Assembly (NCBI GenBank): GCA_016207825.1
Contig: JACQZI010000027.1
Coordinates: 67,607 to 131,606, forward strand
Direction of reading: 5' to 3'
Length of the DNA: 64,000 nucleotides
From: Planctomycetota bacterium
GTDB lineage: Bacteria; Planctomycetota; MHYJ01; JACQXL01; JACQZI01
The notes under the pieces were generated by a model. That model was not told where the DNA came from. It did no database searches and saw only the letters and a program-made list of their open reading frames with translations. Positions 4,063-61,441 of this stretch are shown here, piece after piece; within the stretch, counting starts at the first letter, position 1; each line of letters begins with the position of its first letter. A program made the position numbers and the translations under genes.

Positions 4063-4695
4063 ATGCAATCAGATTACAATGATTTCTGGCAAAAGCATAT
4101 TGGAGTAAAAGGCAAGCGTTTCGGCTGGTTCCGCCGCAAGCGCTATGCGGTGCTGGCGAAATTATTTCCGCGTTTCATGCTTAAACGGTTCCCGGCGCGT
4201 AAATACCATCTGGGCGTGGCATCCATATCAGAAGGCGATTTTTGCGATATCGGCTCCGGGCTGGGGGGCGCTACCGCGTTGTATAATGCTTTAAGTAATA
4301 AACCGGCTGTAGGAATTGATATATCTGTTGAGGCGGTTTCATTTGCCCAAAGCGAAAAGAAACGGCTTGGGTTTAAGAAAGTCCGGTTTGCGGTAAGCGA
4401 TGTGTTTCGCACGCCTTTTAAGGATAATTCGTTTGATACGGTTTATCTCGGCCAGATTTTGGAACATCTGCCGGATGAGCATAAATCTTTGCGCGAGGCC
4501 TGTCGGATATTAAAACCAAACGGTTTATTAGTGATTACGGTTCCCAAAGAAGATATGCTGCCGAGCCCTTATCATGTTAGGGAGTATACTACAGACAGCC
4601 TGAAAAACCTGCTTAAGCCTTACAGCAATGAAGAAATCGCTTTTTACGACTTTGACAAAACGCGGTTGGCCGCTTCGCTCAGGATTAAAAAATGA
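4063..4695 (+). CDS. Class I SAM-dependent methyltransferase
   Basis: A 210-residue methyltransferase. Motif I is FCDIGSGLGGAT (about residue 60), followed by VGIDIS as the acidic end of strand 2, AVSDVFRTPFKDNSFDTVYL as the motif II/III region, and RILKPNGLLVITVP as post motif III; this is the UbiE/COQ5-like pattern (Methyltransf_11). The N-terminus is basic and aromatic (FRRKRYAVLAKLFPRFML). I chose ATG 4063; an in-frame TTG at 4054 would add three residues. The substrate cannot be told from the sequence. The gene stands alone between holA, on the opposite strand, and a thioredoxin-like gene. Confidence 0.85.
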   Translation: MQSDYNDFWQKHIGVKGKRFGWFRRKRYAVLAKLFPRFMLKRFPARKYHLGVASISEGDFCDIGSGLGGATALYNALSNKPAVGIDISVEAVSFAQSEKKRLGFKKVRFAVSDVFRTPFKDNSFDTVYLGQILEHLPDEHKSLREACRILKPNGLLVITVPKEDMLPSPYHVREYTTDSLKNLLKPYSNEEIAFYDFDKTRLAASLRIKK

Positions 4696-4780
4696 CTATG
4701 TTTATAAGTTATTTTATTTGACTTACTATGGGAATAACCTAAAATCTAAACTCAACATTAAATATGTAAAGGAGATTAAT

Positions 4781-5794
4781 ATGGTGAAGAAAAGCGTTAT
4801 CGGCGGAATAATCGCTGCGTTACTAATTTGCGTAACGCAATCCGCGCTTTTTGCCGGAGACGGGTGGCTTACTTCGTTTGATAAAGGCAAGGAAATTGCC
4901 AAGAAGGAGAAGAAAGACATCATCGTTGATTTTACCGGCTCTGATTGGTGCGGCTGGTGCATCCAGTTGCATGAAGAAGTGTTTTCAACCGATAAGTGGA
5001 AAAAAGAAGGTTCCAAAAAATATGTTATGGTCAGCCTGGATTTCCCCCGCAACAAGCAAATGCCTGAAGATGAAAAGAAAGCTAATGATAAGTTAATGAA
5101 ACTGTTCGGTGTAGAAGGCTTCCCGACTATTTTCCTGGTTGATTCGGATGGCAAACCCTATGCCAAGACCGGTTACCAGAAGGGCGGGCCGGAAAATTAT
5201 CTCAAGCACTTGGGCGAGCTTTCCAAGCAAAAAGAAACAAGAGATAATATAATGTCCGAAATAAAGAAAGCAGAAAAAGAAGAAAGCCTTAAATTGCTGG
5301 ATGAGCTTATAGGCAAGCTTAAGGAGTGGGGTGTTGATGGGGCTTATGTTGAGACAAAAGAAGAAATTGTCGGCCTGGATTCGGACAATAAAAACGGGAT
5401 GAAACTTAAATATTCCGTAGAACTTACATATTATTACCGCAAAGCAGGGGAACCCGATAAGAGTAATGCGTATCTGAATGAAGTGGAAAAATTAAGCGAA
5501 GGTGAAGCCTCTAGTATAAAAATGGATTTTAAGATAGAGGAAATAGAAGCGAAATACCTCCAAGGGCAGAAACCTGATTTCGAAGGCGCAAAAAAGGCTT
5601 TGAACGAGCTTATTAAAGACAACAAAAAAGGGAAAATTGCGCAAAAGGTTTATTTTGAGATTGCCGGAATAGATTATCAGCTTAAGAATAACGAAGCGTG
5701 CATTAAGGATTTGGAAAACGCCTTAAATGCCGCCCCTGATTCAGAGCTTGCCAGCCAGATTAAAGGTATATTAAAGGAAAAGTTTAATAAATAA
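4781..5794 (+). CDS. Secreted thioredoxin-like protein with TPR-like tail
   Basis: A 337-residue exported protein. The start is ATG 4781, after aaggagatt, giving a clean signal peptide (VKKSVIGGIIAALLICVTQS ending near ALFAG); the longer open frame from 4628 overlaps the preceding gene and lacks such features. Residues about 40-150 form a thioredoxin-like domain with the redox motif DWCGWC, as in DsbD-gamma-like and thioredoxin_7 proteins, and a cis-proline context GFPTIFLVD. The C-terminal half is charged and helical with a TPR-like repeat near the end (KVYFEIAGIDYQLKNNEACI). It probably works as a periplasmic thiol oxidoreductase or chaperone. Compare the Cys-x-x-Sec relative at 57701. Confidence 0.82.
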   Translation: MVKKSVIGGIIAALLICVTQSALFAGDGWLTSFDKGKEIAKKEKKDIIVDFTGSDWCGWCIQLHEEVFSTDKWKKEGSKKYVMVSLDFPRNKQMPEDEKKANDKLMKLFGVEGFPTIFLVDSDGKPYAKTGYQKGGPENYLKHLGELSKQKETRDNIMSEIKKAEKEESLKLLDELIGKLKEWGVDGAYVETKEEIVGLDSDNKNGMKLKYSVELTYYYRKAGEPDKSNAYLNEVEKLSEGEASSIKMDFKIEEIEAKYLQGQKPDFEGAKKALNELIKDNKKGKIAQKVYFEIAGIDYQLKNNEACIKDLENALNAAPDSELASQIKGILKEKFNK

Positions 5795-26115: not shown

Positions 26116-26751
26116 ATGAAAAAGCTATTAGCAATGGCGTTGATAACCCTGGTGATAGTGGCAGCCGGTAAACTGACTTGGTTAAGCGGACAGGCAGCGG
26201 AAACCCCGCCGGTTCCGCCCGTGCCGCCGGTTCCCGCGCCAGCCCCGGCCGGGATTAAAATCGGGGTGGTTAATATTTTCGATGTGTTCAGCAAGTTCAA
26301 AAAACGCGATGCTTACCAGAAAGAACTAAGCAAGGAAGAAGCCGAAGAATACAGGAGCTGGAAAAAGGATTACGATGATGTCATAATGGAAAACCAGAAG
26401 TTGATGGAAGAAAACAACGACCCGAACAGCGATTTATGGGCGACCCTTTCCAGCCGCATAGAAACGCTCAGGATGCAGAAGGAACAGCGCATTAAGTTGT
26501 GGCGTAAACGGATGAACAAGAAAATCAATACCCAGATGGCGCAGCTTTATAATGAAGTCCGTGAAACCATAGATGCTTACGGCAAGGAAAAAGGTTTTGC
26601 GCTGATACTTAAAACAGAACCGGACCGCATCGTGAATTCCAATAACCAGGATGAAGACGCCCAGATGGGGATTAATTTCCGGACGGTTCTTTTCAGCCAG
26701 GGCGCCGTTGATATTACCGCCGATATCATTAAGAAACTTAACGGAGAATGA
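26116..26751 (+). CDS. skp: OmpH/Skp family periplasmic chaperone
   Basis: A 211-residue exported protein: signal peptide MKKLLAMALITLVIVAAGK, a Pro-rich spacer made of PPV/PAP repeats (residues 34-53), then the OmpH domain beginning IKIGVVNIFDVFSKFKKRDA and a long coiled coil rich in Lys and Glu, ending FRTVLFSQGAVDITADIIKKL. Skp chaperones unfolded outer-membrane proteins to BamA. The order bamA, skp, lpxD is conserved among diderms. ATG 26116 is preceded by aaggagg. Confidence 0.9.
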   Translation: MKKLLAMALITLVIVAAGKLTWLSGQAAETPPVPPVPPVPAPAPAGIKIGVVNIFDVFSKFKKRDAYQKELSKEEAEEYRSWKKDYDDVIMENQKLMEENNDPNSDLWATLSSRIETLRMQKEQRIKLWRKRMNKKINTQMAQLYNEVRETIDAYGKEKGFALILKTEPDRIVNSNNQDEDAQMGINFRTVLFSQGAVDITADIIKKLNGE

Positions 26752-55388: not shown

Positions 55389-57401
55389 ATGCCAAAACTA
55401 AAGCCATTAGCCGACCAGCCCGACACCCGTCCGACCGAGTCATCCGGGCGGAGGACACCCGGTCTGGCGGGTTACCCGCCTGAACGAAGCATTCGGGCAG
55501 GTCTGGAAGAAATCAAATCCGCCCATAATAAAGAAAATTGGTTTACGGTAAAACGCCTGGGCGAAAAGACAATAAAATCATTATCTTTTAACTCCCTTCC
55601 GCCTTCAGATAAATACCAGCTATATTGCTATTTAGGCGATGCTTATCGCTTTCTTGGAGAATTTTCACGTTCACTGGATATTTATTATAAAGCATCTTTA
55701 CTTGCTTCTAAACGCCTCAAACCTCCTTATAACGCCATGATATTCAGTGTTCTGGGGCTTAATTTCCTGAATATTGGAAACATCAATCAGGCATTAAACC
55801 AATTCAAGAAAGTCGAGCAATATTATCAGGAATGCGGCGATAAATTATACCCGATGGATACATCAAGGCGTTTCTATAATCTTTTAGGGCTTGGTTATGT
55901 ATATCTCCATAAAGACGAACTGGATGAAGTGAAAGAAACCATTGAAAGAAAACTGCCCGCATACTTGTCATTATTATCTGACAAGGATATTGTTATGGAG
56001 TATTACCATCTAAAAGGAGAATATTTGATAGCGATAAAAAACTATAAGGATGCCCGCGTATCTTTTTGGGAATCTATTAAAATCGGCGAGCAAATCAATT
56101 TACCCGCTGGTGTTATTACCGCAAAAATACATCTCGCCATAATTGACCTTATAGAAAACCAAAAGCGCTTCGCTATTCAGAATCTGCAAACTATTCTGAA
56201 GGATGCACAACGGCTAAAACTCAATGATATTGTTTGTGAAGTCGGGCTTCTTTTAAGTAAATGTTACAGCCTTAGCGGCTTCCCTGATAAAGCAATAATA
56301 ATAGAAAACCGCATTAAGCCTATTCTGTCCAAGCTTGATACGGTTTGGCTCTATGAAAAAACCCGGGAATTCGATAGGCTCTATCAACAATTACAGGGTA
56401 AACCCAAACATATATCCAAATTTATCCCGAAGATACTGGTTCAAACCCTTGATGGCCGTTATGAAAAGTCGGCTGATAAGTATACCATTGTTGGTAATCA
56501 TCCCGCAATGCAAGAAATTTATCATCTTATAGAAAAGATTGCTCCGACAGACTTACCGGTGTTGATTCAAGGCGAAACCGGCACGGGAAAGGAACTTATT
56601 GCCAGTGCCATACATAATAATAGCCGGCGTGTAAGCAAAACCTATTTCCCCTTTAACTGCGGGGCGCTTCCGGAAACGCTTATTGAAAGCAGTTTATTCG
56701 GCCATACCAAAGGCGCTTTCACCGGTGCAATCGAAGAGAAAAAAGGTTATATTGAGCTCGCTTCAGGCGGCACGCTATTTATAGATGAAATCGCCAATAT
56801 GTCTCCGTCTATGCAGCAGAAGTTACTACGAGTTCTTGAAGAAAAACTTCTCTGGCGTGTTGGTGCCTCAAAACCAATTCAGATAGATACCCGCTTTATC
56901 TTTGCCAGCAATCAGGATATTGAACAACTGGTTAAGCGAAAACTCTTCAGGGAAGACCTGTTTTACCGCATCAATACGATAGTGATAAATCTTCCTCCCC
57001 TCCGCGACCGAAAGGATGACATTCCGTTATTGGCCCAGCATTTTCTACGAAAATATGGTCGTCCCTCGTCTCTCGTCTCTCCTTCCGCCCTTTCCCTTTT
57101 TACCGCCTACCCCTGGCCCGGCAATATCCGTGAACTGGAAAACGAAATAAAACGCATCTGCGCCTTATATCCCGATGTCAAAGTTATAGAAGAATCAATG
57201 TTATCTGATACCATCCGTAATTACCAACCACCTGCCCATCCGCCGAAAAGCAAATCCCTTAAAGAGTCAACTCTATCATATCAACGAAAATTTATTAAAG
57301 ATGTTTTAGACAGTTGTAATGGAAATATCACCCAGGCGGCCCATTTATTAGCATGCGCCCCGGCTAATCTCTGCCGGAAAATGAAGTCGTTAAAACTTTA
57401 A
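55389..57401 (+). CDS. Sigma-54-dependent activator with TPR sensor domain
   Basis: A 670-residue bacterial enhancer-binding protein. Residues about 75-330 are TPR-like repeats (QLYCYLGDAYRFLGEFSRSL; MIFSVLGLNFLNIGNINQAL) in place of a receiver domain. The AAA+ domain follows: Walker A GETGTGKE (about 398), the sigma-54 contact loop GAFTGA (about 442), Walker B GGTLFIDEIA, then FREDLFYRINTIVINLPPLR and WPGNIRELENEIKRI. The C-terminal Fis-type helix-turn-helix is NITQAAHLLACAPANLCRKM. Residues about 9-40, rich in Pro/Arg/Gly, are encoded by palindromic repeat DNA. The likely target promoter is immediately downstream (57610). Confidence 0.92.
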   Translation: MPKLKPLADQPDTRPTESSGRRTPGLAGYPPERSIRAGLEEIKSAHNKENWFTVKRLGEKTIKSLSFNSLPPSDKYQLYCYLGDAYRFLGEFSRSLDIYYKASLLASKRLKPPYNAMIFSVLGLNFLNIGNINQALNQFKKVEQYYQECGDKLYPMDTSRRFYNLLGLGYVYLHKDELDEVKETIERKLPAYLSLLSDKDIVMEYYHLKGEYLIAIKNYKDARVSFWESIKIGEQINLPAGVITAKIHLAIIDLIENQKRFAIQNLQTILKDAQRLKLNDIVCEVGLLLSKCYSLSGFPDKAIIIENRIKPILSKLDTVWLYEKTREFDRLYQQLQGKPKHISKFIPKILVQTLDGRYEKSADKYTIVGNHPAMQEIYHLIEKIAPTDLPVLIQGETGTGKELIASAIHNNSRRVSKTYFPFNCGALPETLIESSLFGHTKGAFTGAIEEKKGYIELASGGTLFIDEIANMSPSMQQKLLRVLEEKLLWRVGASKPIQIDTRFIFASNQDIEQLVKRKLFREDLFYRINTIVINLPPLRDRKDDIPLLAQHFLRKYGRPSSLVSPSALSLFTAYPWPGNIRELENEIKRICALYPDVKVIEESMLSDTIRNYQPPAHPPKSKSLKESTLSYQRKFIKDVLDSCNGNITQAAHLLACAPANLCRKMKSLKL

Positions 57402-57609: not shown

Positions 57610-57625
57610 TGGCACGATATTTGCT
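57610..57625 (+). promoter_or_regulatory. Sigma-54 (-24/-12) promoter
   Basis: TGGCACG-atat-TTGCT matches the RpoN consensus TGGCACG-N4-TTGCW at every position, with GG at 57611-57612 and GC at 57623-57624. It is 75 bases before ATG 57701 and 209 bases after the stop of a sigma-54 activator gene. It should drive the selenoprotein-like gene and its followers. Confidence 0.85.
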
Positions 57626-57700
57626 CTAAAATGAAGCATATATTCGCACGAACCTGAAAATAAGTCTCTGGTTGCTCCGGCGAATAGAGAGGAAAATGAC

Positions 57701-58612
57701 ATGAAAAAGCATAGTTTTCTGGTGTTGATTTTATTAGGCCTGTTAGCGGCGGTCGTAGTGGCGGATAATGAAAGAGGTAAAGCTAAAATCACATGGGAAA
57801 AGAATTACGATGTGGCATTGAAAAACGCTCAAACTACGGGTAAACTCGTCCTGGTATTTTCCACCTGCGACTGCTGAGCGGTTCAGCGGGCAGAAGCAAG
57901 CCGTGTGCTTGCGGATGAAACGTTCATAGAGCTTACCCGGCAATTCCACATGGTTAACGGCACCGCCAAAGAAGCGGATAAATTCAAGATGGACGAATAT
58001 ACTAAAAAAGGCGGAATGGTGATTGTTGATCCCGATGAGAATGAAATCATCCGCGGGTCTTTTCTCTACCGGAGCCAGGGGCAAGCCGCTCCCGAAAAAG
58101 CGCTGGAAATAATAAATGGCGCCTTAAAAATATATGCTCCCAAAGAAATTGACTGGTTAGATTCGCTTGAAAAAGGAGTAGAACTCGCGAAGGATGGTAA
58201 AAAACTGTTATTTATCGCCTTTGCCGACGACCAGCAAGATTCGCTGAAAACCCTGAAGGCGCTGGAAAACCCGTTCCTGGTTAAAACCAATGAAAAATTC
58301 GTATTTGTTAAGGTAAAAACGGCAAAAAAACCGGATAAACCTTCCGCTAAAAAGGAAACGGATGAGGAAAAGAAAAAACGTGAAGCCGAGATAGCGGTAT
58401 CGCTGGCACAAATGGATAAGTGGAAAGTTTCCTCCGCGCCGGTTATTTTCATCGTTGACCCGGGCGAGCCTGAACCGGAAAAGAAACCATTGCAAAAAAT
58501 AACCGGCCTGCGTGATACGGTGTATCTGAAGAAAAATATGAACAAGGCTTTGGATGATTACCGTAAGTCGCAGGAAGAAAAGAAACAAAAAGAGGAAAAA
58601 GAAAAGAAATAA
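57701..58612 (+). CDS. Thioredoxin-like candidate selenoprotein (Cys-x-x-Sec)
   Basis: Start ATG 57701 follows gagaggaaa. The frame runs through an in-frame TGA at 57875-57877 (codon 59) and continues to TAA at 58610-58612, 303 residues if TGA is read as selenocysteine. Residues 4-22 (HSFLVLILLGLLAAVVVAD) are a signal peptide. The TGA falls in FSTCDC-U-AVQRAEASRVLADE, exactly where thioredoxin-fold relatives have the CxxC redox motif (compare DWCGWC in the 4781 gene), giving C56-D-C-U59. The rest is a thioredoxin-like domain with GGMVIVDPDENE, a second such repeat (APVIFIVDPGEPE) and a Lys/Glu-rich tail. A SECIS-like hairpin follows the TGA. Alternatively it is a pseudogene or carries one read error. 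Confidence 0.75.
57875..57912 (+). promoter_or_regulatory. UGA codon with candidate bacterial SECIS hairpin
   Basis: After the TGA (57875-57877) and 18 bases comes gcaagc (57896-57901), loop cgtgt (57902-57906) and gcttgc (57907-57912): a perfect 6-bp stem with a 5-base loop whose second base is G. The loop begins 24 bases after the TGA. From memory, bacterial SECIS elements need a stem-loop with a G among the first two loop bases about 16-37 bases after UGA, so it fits. A SelB-binding role is inferred. Confidence 0.65.
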
Positions 58613-58634
58613 CGATTATCGAGGTGATGTGTTT

Positions 58635-58892
58635 ATGAGTAAAACTGCGGCCAGAAACCTGAATTCCGAATTCGCAATTCGCAATTCAGTTTGCCCCCCT
58701 TTAACCACGGACGATATCTTCACCCTGCGCGGTAAACCAATGGTTAAATGTATTGAACCGGCTAAAAACTTGAATTTACCAGTTGAGCGGCGCAATCAGA
58801 AATGGGTTTATGTGTCTCTTCATACAAACAATGAAGAGCATTATTTCTTTAAAGATGGCTATTTAGTAGGCTGGAAACGAATGAGTCTGTAA
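58635..58892 (+). CDS. Small protein with BamE-like pattern
   Basis: An 85-residue protein from ATG 58635, 22 bases after the selenoprotein-like gene, with gaggtgat upstream. The segment TTDDIFTLRGKPMVKCIEPA and KWVYVSLHTNNEEHYFFKDG then YLVGWKRMSL follows the pattern of SmpA/BamE-like domains (helix with LxGxP, then strands W-Y and Y-F-x-DG). There is no signal peptide, so it is cytoplasmic or truncated. Residues 9-18 (LNSEFAIRNS) are encoded by an attc/gaattc simple repeat. It is probably part of the sigma-54 operon. Confidence 0.5.
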   Translation: MSKTAARNLNSEFAIRNSVCPPLTTDDIFTLRGKPMVKCIEPAKNLNLPVERRNQKWVYVSLHTNNEEHYFFKDGYLVGWKRMSL

Positions 58893-58909: not shown

Positions 58910-61441
58910 ATGAAAAAATCGTTATTATTAATCTGTATACTTGGTGTCCTTTGTGCCTTTGTGGTGTCGCAGGCCGTCTATGCCGGTTCCTGGCCGGATT
59001 TCTCCAATCCCGGCGGCGGCTCGTGGTATACCGGCTACTACCGTCCTGTCTCCATCAACAACACCGCCGGCGCGCAAACCGATTACCAAGTCGCCATTAC
59101 CCCTTTTACCGATTCTAACTTTATTAATAATTCAGGACTGGTCGGCTCGTGGCACTTCTCGGAAGGTTCGGGCACCACCACCGCCGATATGTCCGGTAAC
59201 AGGAATAACGCAACGCTTAACGTTGGTGGAACTCTGGTTGATAACTGTGATGCCACCGCCGGCTGGACCGCTTCCGCCGCCGGTTCAGTAAGCCTTAATA
59301 ATAGCCTTTACCGGGAAGGCGCTGGCGCGGTAAACTGTATAAAAACAGGGTTAACTACCACTCAAGTATTTTTTTACAAGACCATTGCCGTAACTAATAT
59401 GCAGAATAAATGGCTTAATGTATGGGTATATATCAACAACCAGGCTACCCTTAACAAAATTGGCCTGATGGAAGTGTTTGCGCTGAAGTCTGATTATTCC
59501 TGGTATATCTATAAAAGCCCTATTTTGCCTGCTTCTCTACAGGTGGGTTGGAACCTCTTATCGCTTGATACCGCTAATCCCAGCGGGACATTCGGAACGC
59601 CGGATTTAACACAGGTAAACCAAATAAGGCTTGATGTTGACACCAATACTATCGATAAGACTTACGCCGCGGGCGATATTATTATGGACTATTGGTTCCT
59701 GTCTAATACCCAACCGACCTTTCCCGCCTGGACAGACGGCAAATTCGGCAAGGCGTTATCCTTTGACGGAGTGGATGATTATTTGGAAATCCCATCTTCT
59801 TCCTCGCTAAATAATTTAATTACTGCAACATGGGAAACCTGGGTATACCCAACGCTTTCTGTTAGAGGGGATGGTCACCAACAAAAAATAATCTGGAGAA
59901 ATGGCCCTTCGGCAAGTAATGCATCTATACAGATGTATTGGGCAGGCGATACTTTTACAGTTGGAGCGTATGTAAATGCTTGGAATACGGCATCAAAAGG
60001 GGGATACAATATAAATCAATGGTATCATGTGATTGGAACTTTAGACGGTTCAAATATTAAACTCTATATTAATGGAGTTAATGTAGCAACTACGCCATGC
60101 GGGTCACTTGGAACAGGTTCAACAGTATGGAGATTAGCAACATGGGATTCTACCGGCTATGATTTCAAAGGCATCATAGACGAAGTCCGCATTTATAACC
60201 GGGCGCTTACGTCCGCCGAAATTTCCACCCGCTATAACTACTATACCACTAAACTCAAAGGCGATTATTCGGATATCCGCTTCACCGCCTCAACCGCCAC
60301 CGGCAGCGCCGAACTTTCTTACTGGCAGGAAACTGATAATAAATTCTGGGTCAAAGTCCCCAATCTGCCCGCCAATAATTCTTATATCTATATGTATTAC
60401 GGCAATCCCTCGGCAACCTCGGTTTCCAATATCAATACCGCCTTTATCTTTGGGGATGATTTCTCGGTCGGCGGCCTTAATCCGGCTTGGGCGACTTATC
60501 AAAACGGCGGCGGAACAATTACCGTAACTAATGGCGCCGCCGTCCTGGATTGCAATAGTTTCGCCGGTTGTGTCCGCCTCGAAAAAGCGGGATTGGCCGC
60601 GCCGTATATTATTGATGCCATCGCTAAAATAGAGTACCCCTATGGAGCTCATCGTTTCCGATTCTGTTCCCAAAACGCAGGATTTGATATCGGTATCTTT
60701 GATAGCAACAACATTTATTTCAATGCTTGGACGGGCGTGGTTGTGGCAAATACTGCCTATGTAAGGTTAAAACAGATACATCAGTCTAACCGGGTTGACT
60801 GGCAGATATTTAATCTGGACGGCTCGCAGGTTTATAATAATAACTATGTCCCGGGAGGAGCGCCGAGTGGTATCTATTATTATCTTGGAGACGACCCCAA
60901 CGGGGGCTGTAAAGTTACCCTGGATACCGTCTTCGTCCGCAAATATGCTTCGCCCGAACCGACTGTCGCCGCGCCGGGTGCGGAGTCTTATGGCTCATCC
61001 AAACGTGTGGAAACCGCGAACTGGGCAAGTTTGTGTCCGGCCGGAAAAGCTATCGTAATGGGACAGTCTATCGCCCAGGTCTCCTTTACCGCCTCGGTTA
61101 CAGGCACGAATATTGCACGCTGGAAGAAGTTCCGCATAGATAAAAACATTACCGGCGTTGCTACTCCCGTTCCCGACAACAAAATAGAAATCCAAATCTG
61201 GATGGAAAATAATAATAACGGCTTCTGGGATACCGGCGATACCTTTATCTCTAAAGGCAATTTTACCAACGGCATCTGCTACCTTAATATGAAACAATGG
61301 CAGGTAACGACTACAACTAAGACTTATTATATTGTATATAAATTAGCGGGAGATATTGGGGGAGGACAGAGAGCTGGCGTGAAAATAGTGGACAGTAGTT
61401 ATTTGGAATTCGAGAATGCGACATGTGTAGGTGTTCCATAA
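58910..61441 (+). CDS. Secreted LamG / DUF2341-type surface protein
   Basis: An 843-residue exported protein behind aaggagat. The signal peptide is KKSLLLICILGVLCAFVVSQ-AVYAG. Residues about 40-85 (YRPVSINNTAGAQTDYQVAI) and 455-520 (YSDIRFTASTATGSAELSYW; YIYMYYGNPSATSVSNINTA) are the two halves of a DUF2341-like domain. A LamG/concanavalin-like domain spans about 280-440 (ALSFDGVDDYLEIPSSSSLN; WYHVIGTLDGSNIKLYINGV; IDEVRIYNRALTSAEI). The C-terminal 150 residues (RWKKFRIDKNITGVATPVPD and following) recur almost unchanged in the RCC1 protein at 62225. It probably binds carbohydrate or protein at the cell surface. Confidence 0.85.
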   Translation: MKKSLLLICILGVLCAFVVSQAVYAGSWPDFSNPGGGSWYTGYYRPVSINNTAGAQTDYQVAITPFTDSNFINNSGLVGSWHFSEGSGTTTADMSGNRNNATLNVGGTLVDNCDATAGWTASAAGSVSLNNSLYREGAGAVNCIKTGLTTTQVFFYKTIAVTNMQNKWLNVWVYINNQATLNKIGLMEVFALKSDYSWYIYKSPILPASLQVGWNLLSLDTANPSGTFGTPDLTQVNQIRLDVDTNTIDKTYAAGDIIMDYWFLSNTQPTFPAWTDGKFGKALSFDGVDDYLEIPSSSSLNNLITATWETWVYPTLSVRGDGHQQKIIWRNGPSASNASIQMYWAGDTFTVGAYVNAWNTASKGGYNINQWYHVIGTLDGSNIKLYINGVNVATTPCGSLGTGSTVWRLATWDSTGYDFKGIIDEVRIYNRALTSAEISTRYNYYTTKLKGDYSDIRFTASTATGSAELSYWQETDNKFWVKVPNLPANNSYIYMYYGNPSATSVSNINTAFIFGDDFSVGGLNPAWATYQNGGGTITVTNGAAVLDCNSFAGCVRLEKAGLAAPYIIDAIAKIEYPYGAHRFRFCSQNAGFDIGIFDSNNIYFNAWTGVVVANTAYVRLKQIHQSNRVDWQIFNLDGSQVYNNNYVPGGAPSGIYYYLGDDPNGGCKVTLDTVFVRKYASPEPTVAAPGAESYGSSKRVETANWASLCPAGKAIVMGQSIAQVSFTASVTGTNIARWKKFRIDKNITGVATPVPDNKIEIQIWMENNNNGFWDTGDTFISKGNFTNGICYLNMKQWQVTTTTKTYYIVYKLAGDIGGGQRAGVKIVDSSYLEFENATCVGVP

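Follow-up and report, generated by a model that had tools for sequence, protein, structure and literature searches.

The TGA-containing gene and its surroundings

The window, by which we mean the whole 64 kb stretch of planctomycetal DNA analysed here, carries on its forward strand a single open frame that runs from an ATG at 57701 to a TAA at 58610-58612 and is interrupted by one internal stop only, a TGA at 57875-57877 (codon 59). A previous sequence-only reading had proposed exactly this frame as a candidate selenoprotein gene, and our coordinates agree with it, no other stop being present. The features of the locus, with the evidence for each in brackets, are:

55389..57401, + strand: sigma-54 enhancer-binding activator with TPR, AAA+ and Fis HTH parts, the likely regulator (domain matches)
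57610..57625, + strand: sigma-54 -24/-12 promoter TGGCACGATATTTGCT (12 of 12 consensus positions)
57686..57693, + strand: Shine-Dalgarno-like element AGAGAGGA (sequence)
57701..58612, + strand: predicted selenoprotein gene of 303 aa with Sec codon 59, encoding a predicted exported tandem thioredoxin-fold protein (frame, Thioredoxin_7 at E 2e-9, paralogues, model)
57701..57766, + strand: aa 1-22, a signal sequence or hydrophobic helix at the N-terminus (MKKHSFLVLILLGLLAAVVVAD; modelled as helix 3-21)
57785..58138, + strand: thioredoxin domain 1, about aa 29-146, with C56-D-C58-U59 (Thioredoxin_7, model, AGR2/AGR3/ERp19 at Z about 12)
57875..57877, + strand: TGA predicted to be read as Sec, at the N-terminus of helix 60-71 and in the alignment column of the first WCxxC Cys (alignment, model)
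57896..57912, + strand: putative SECIS apical hairpin GCAAGC-CGUGU-GCUUGC, loop at TGA+27 (stem comparison)
58142..58570, + strand: thioredoxin domain 2, about aa 148-290, without Cys (model, DsbD C-terminal domain at Z about 12.9, sequence)

The residues around codon 59 read VFSTCDCUAVQRAEASRVLAD, so that the motif is C56-D57-C58-U59. With the TGA read through and Sec entered as C, domain 1 reaches 37.7 bits against Thioredoxin_7 (PF13899), above its gathering cut-off of 27 bits (E 2e-9). The signal sequence was called from its residues and the model helix, and would serve to export the product.

The promoter at 57610-57625 is the only perfect sigma-54 site of its kind in the 64 kb window and, as rpoN is present in the source genome, the -24/-12 element, the sigma factor gene and an enhancer-binding protein are all there. 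Transcription of the gene is thus probably sigma-54-dependent and, judging from gene order, switched by the adjacent activator at 55389-57401. One of the paralogues in the same genome (L019) has a TTGACA-17-TATAAT-type (sigma-70 type) promoter instead.

Directly downstream lie a small 112-aa frame without a Pfam match (58554-58892) and then a gene for an 843-aa LamG/DUF2341 protein (58910-61441). Elsewhere in the window, 4628-5794 encodes a Cys-type thioredoxin-like protein (Thioredoxin_2/Thioredoxin_7) without a TGA, and a second candidate, the TGA at 26749-26751, which is followed by an open frame, turned out to be ordinary, belonging to an OmpH-like gene that ends beside LpxD.

Decoding of the in-frame TGA

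All four genes of the Sec pathway, which had been suggested as a check on the candidate, are found in the source genome: selA (SelA match of 546 bits), selB (354 bits), selC, a tRNA-Sec gene near selB (70 bits, anticodon TCA), and selD (364 bits), which has an in-frame TGA of its own in the motif GCVGUAGK. This latter position is the classic Sec site of SelD. For selC, only tRNA-Sec model matches above 60 bits were accepted; those of 40-54 bits were set aside, as they are probably other long-arm tRNAs. With selA, selB, selC and selD complete, the source genome is, by its gene content, able to make and insert Sec. Across the class, selA accompanies the TGA-bearing homologues in all genomes that gave any, in G017 as a fragment only, and none of the listed homologue matches comes from the four genomes without selA (G004, G006, G007 and G008).

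Two further copies of the gene in the source genome, 65% and about 47% identical to it, carry TGA at the same codon, in the motifs CDAU and CGAU; Cys56 is kept in all three. One of the copies (L024:1495-2769) is fused to a C-terminal phosphatidylethanolamine-binding domain (PEBP, PF01161). Coding conservation extends to both sides of the TGA, as had been claimed from the sequence, with dN at 0.23 before and 0.22 after it, indicating equal selection on the protein on both sides; the comparison rests on dN, dS being saturated.

A class-wide profile search returned matches in 19 of 23 genomes, many of them with exactly one TGA, and for 60 further retrieved stretches every stop was mapped onto the profile. 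Among 110 domain matches, TGA falls exactly at the U59 column in 78 and up to two columns away in 7 more; Cys stands at this column in 19, and TAA or TAG in none. Apart from a TAG that precedes one gene, next to its start, and a TAA at offset +196, near the C-terminus, all other stops coincide with domain ends. The U59 column corresponds to the first Cys of WCxxC, with WUGPC, WUHFC and WUGAC in some homologues and WCGPC and WCHFC in others, and the relatives have TGA or Cys at one and the same column. In total, 80 distinct homologous sites across related genomes, most of which are metagenome assemblies, have a TGA at most two positions from the attacking Cys of WCxxC; since 60 of the loci behind them were picked for having a TGA, the proportion of TGA is biased, while its position is not.

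The three close CxxU copies are found only in the source genome. A search of genome contigs with them gave no relative, one with proteins of the genus g14 did, and the plasmid records searched held no relative. Among the relatives, L020 (G017:C235) has two in-frame TGAs five codons apart (STUSTSSUAK) and adjoins another copy with a single TGA. L042, L043 and L206 of genus g14 have the motif QCHGISGLWUPGK, a further shifted arrangement with Sec but no Cys at +3 and a Cys some 8 residues upstream.

Behind the TGA of the window gene, GCAAGC (57896-57901) and GCTTGC (57907-57912) enclose the loop CGTGT (57902-57906), which is the geometry described previously: a 6 bp stem and a 5-base loop with G in second place, starting 18 bases after the TGA. 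Taken alone, this hairpin is weak evidence, because, of all TGA triplets in the window, 9.7% have a G-loop stem of at least 6 bp behind them, and such a stem arises in 19% of synonymous versions of the gene, and neither the folding-energy nor the stem test is significant for it (p 0.15-0.19). It is the comparison across homologues that makes it significant. Since amino-acid conservation can mimic RNA conservation, each site was tested against synonymous shuffles of its own codons. In a first set of 26 Sec sites, folding energy is below expectation (mean z -1.46, p 2e-6); in 15 Cys sites it is not (mean z -0.07). Over the 80 Sec sites, the longest stem whose loop has a G at its first or second base has a mean length of 7.01 bp, against 4.35 +/- 0.18 in the shuffles (shuffle maximum 4.86), with the loop starting mostly 26-28 bases after the T of the TGA; in 16 Cys sites it is not enriched (4.4 vs 3.9 +/- 0.35). 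The hairpin is thus kept at the same distance in relatives, and a SECIS hairpin downstream of the TGA is found at the level of the family, the window hairpin by itself standing at p 0.19. Within the source genome, codons 66 and 70 change from GCA/CTT in the window gene to GCC/CTG in L024, both synonymously, which amounts to a compensatory replacement of an A-U by a C-G pair in the stem. In the comparison with L019, the hairpin itself forms the longest stretch of codons identical to those of the window gene.

These data bear directly on the two ways in which codon 59 might not encode Sec. If the gene were a pseudogene or the TGA a sequencing error, the TGA would be a true stop leaving two fragments; such stops are common in metagenome assemblies, and a GTG at 57905 could start the 235-aa remainder. 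This would leave unexplained why two paralogues and about 80 homologous sites share the TGA, why TAA and TAG never occupy the column, why the protein is equally conserved past the TGA and why the hairpin is selected at synonymous sites, and we consider it highly improbable. We give equally little credence to a reassignment of TGA to Trp or Gly, or to readthrough by a near-cognate tRNA, which would place another residue at position 59. TGA reassignments do occur in other bacterial lineages, but here TGA terminates 6 of the 42 long frames in the window, which makes a global reassignment unlikely, and a tRNA-Sec with anticodon UCA is present together with SelA, SelB and SelD; homologues with Cys at the U59 column and the hairpin behind most of the homologous TGAs likewise speak against it. 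Decoding of UGA codon 59 as Sec is thereby strongly supported and very likely, the proposal of a selenoprotein being borne out by the sel genes, the paralogues, the homologue column and the hairpins. SelB and tRNA-Sec would decode the codon, guided by the hairpin 18 bases downstream.

Fold and redox site of the predicted protein

The AlphaFold2 model (pLDDT 89) starts with a hydrophobic helix, continues with a pair of thioredoxin folds and ends in a long helix. The second thioredoxin-like part anticipated from the sequence is hence seen in the model as a tandem fold, and its domain 2 lacks Cys. Domain 1 is structurally near AGR2, AGR3 and ERp19 (Z about 12), and domain 2 near the C-terminal domain of DsbD (Z about 12.9). 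Residue 59 lies after strand 49-54 and just ahead of helix 60-71, the usual place of the active site, so that the TGA does occupy the redox position of a C-D-C-TGA thioredoxin fold. The earlier suggestion that Sec replaces either the resolving or the attacking Cys holds for the attacking one and not for the resolving one, as both alignment (first Cys of WCxxC) and model place Sec59 at the attacking position of domain 1.

What sets the three CxxU proteins of the source genome apart is the partner of this residue. Position +3 from Sec holds no Cys, and Cys56 stands three residues ahead of Sec, whereby the redox pair appears inverted relative to the UxxC relatives; the cis-Pro motif, GYPT in the latter, is GG or CG in the former. 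From the start of the first active-site helix, Sec would act as the attacking residue and Cys56 (CxxU) or the adjacent Cys58 would probably resolve it, closing a selenenylsulfide with Sec59. Domain 2, having no Cys, is probably a substrate- or partner-binding or a structural domain, by analogy with the b domains of PDI.

For the protein as a whole, we hold with high confidence to the joint reading of a selenoprotein with predicted export, two thioredoxin folds, an attacking Sec59 in a CxxU motif and probable sigma-54 control. Its activity can be suggested with less assurance: we lean towards a periplasmic thiol/selenol oxidoreductase that would reduce disulfides or peroxides and be recharged by a DsbD-like donor. 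A selenoprotein that is not a disulfide reductase, be it a monothiol-like chaperone or a seleno-peroxidase in which Cys56 and Cys58 form no selenenylsulfide with Sec, would fit the structural proximity of domain 1 to AGR2 and AGR3, the missing Cys at +3 and the GG in place of the cis-Pro motif. The retention of Cys56 in every source-genome copy argues against it, as it fits a CxxU redox pair, and we regard this alternative as possible but rather unlikely.

Probable class-wide expansion and relation to known selenoproteins

The type represented by the window gene is part of a very large group of Thioredoxin_7-like selenoprotein genes found in its class of Planctomycetota. In G014, G016 and the class loci L173-L232, very many Thioredoxin_7-like genes contain one in-frame TGA each, while TAA and TAG are absent; in G014, 30 of the 44 matches for a Thioredoxin_7-like fold, other families not counted, carry a TGA, whose position was checked for part of the 30. 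For comparison, the reported record for one genome is 63 selenoprotein genes, all families included. It seems somewhat more probable than not that the class has radiated Thioredoxin_7-like selenoproteins to tens of genes per genome, giving selenoproteomes among the largest known, and that the window gene comes from a side branch that shifted the resolving Cys from behind Sec to ahead of it (UxxC to CxxU) and lost the cis-Pro, with one copy passing to sigma-54 control. If so, one fold would have been much expanded in a lineage that is not among the groups usually noted for many selenoproteins, Thermodesulfobacteriota, Synergistota and Clostridia (PMC13188914), offering a natural set for studying the change from Cys to Sec and the origin of a SECIS hairpin within coding sequence. 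Automatic annotation would cut such TGA-bearing genes short.

The expectation that no selenoprotein of this type had been described agrees with what we found in the literature and in profile collections. Of the 119 families of prokaryotic selenoproteins compiled in a 2026 review (PMC13188914), none is, in its Table 1, a tandem Trx7 selenoprotein like the window protein, and the parts of PMC4807772 and PMC12013277 available to us describe none of this kind; among NCBIfam models, none reaches its cut-off for the window protein. Planctomycetes P1 and P2 from Porphyra, of the same phylum, have complete Sec machinery and putative selenoproteins, of which the main text describes FdhA and FmdB (PMC4807772).

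Several known proteins resemble the window protein in part. DsbH (2ju5), AGR2/AGR3/ERp19 and the C-terminal domain of DsbD share the fold of its two domains, but are Cys enzymes or chaperones that contain no Sec and, in the matched structures, a single thioredoxin domain. TsoB (NF045694), a rhodanese/DsbD fusion-like selenoprotein, is similar to the UxxC relatives in its DsbD-like thioredoxin part (up to E 2e-25), whereas the window protein is unmatched at E 0.01, does not reach the curated cut-off and has neither the rhodanese nor the DsbD membrane parts. The VPGUxxT family (NF041382, NF041383) also comprises thioredoxin-like selenoproteins and weakly matches relatives of the window protein, but its motif differs and the window protein itself is unmatched at E 0.01. 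The nearest known family is Trx7/PDZ (NF041199), the sole Thioredoxin_7 entry among the 119, which likewise has a Thioredoxin_7-type domain with Sec in CxxU (PMC13188914, Table 1). The match to it is weak and local (E 0.004 for the window protein, 1e-5 for L024), at 16.1 bits against a curated cut-off of 300, and where NF041199 has a PDZ domain, the window protein, which has none in Pfam up to E 1, has a second thioredoxin fold. Because no NCBIfam cut-off is reached, the NF041199 score is 16 of 300 bits and the PDZ domain is missing, we regard the window protein, on these profile comparisons, as a new family or subfamily of thioredoxin-like selenoproteins, one that would add to the known families an unusual CxxU motif on a predicted exported tandem thioredoxin scaffold.
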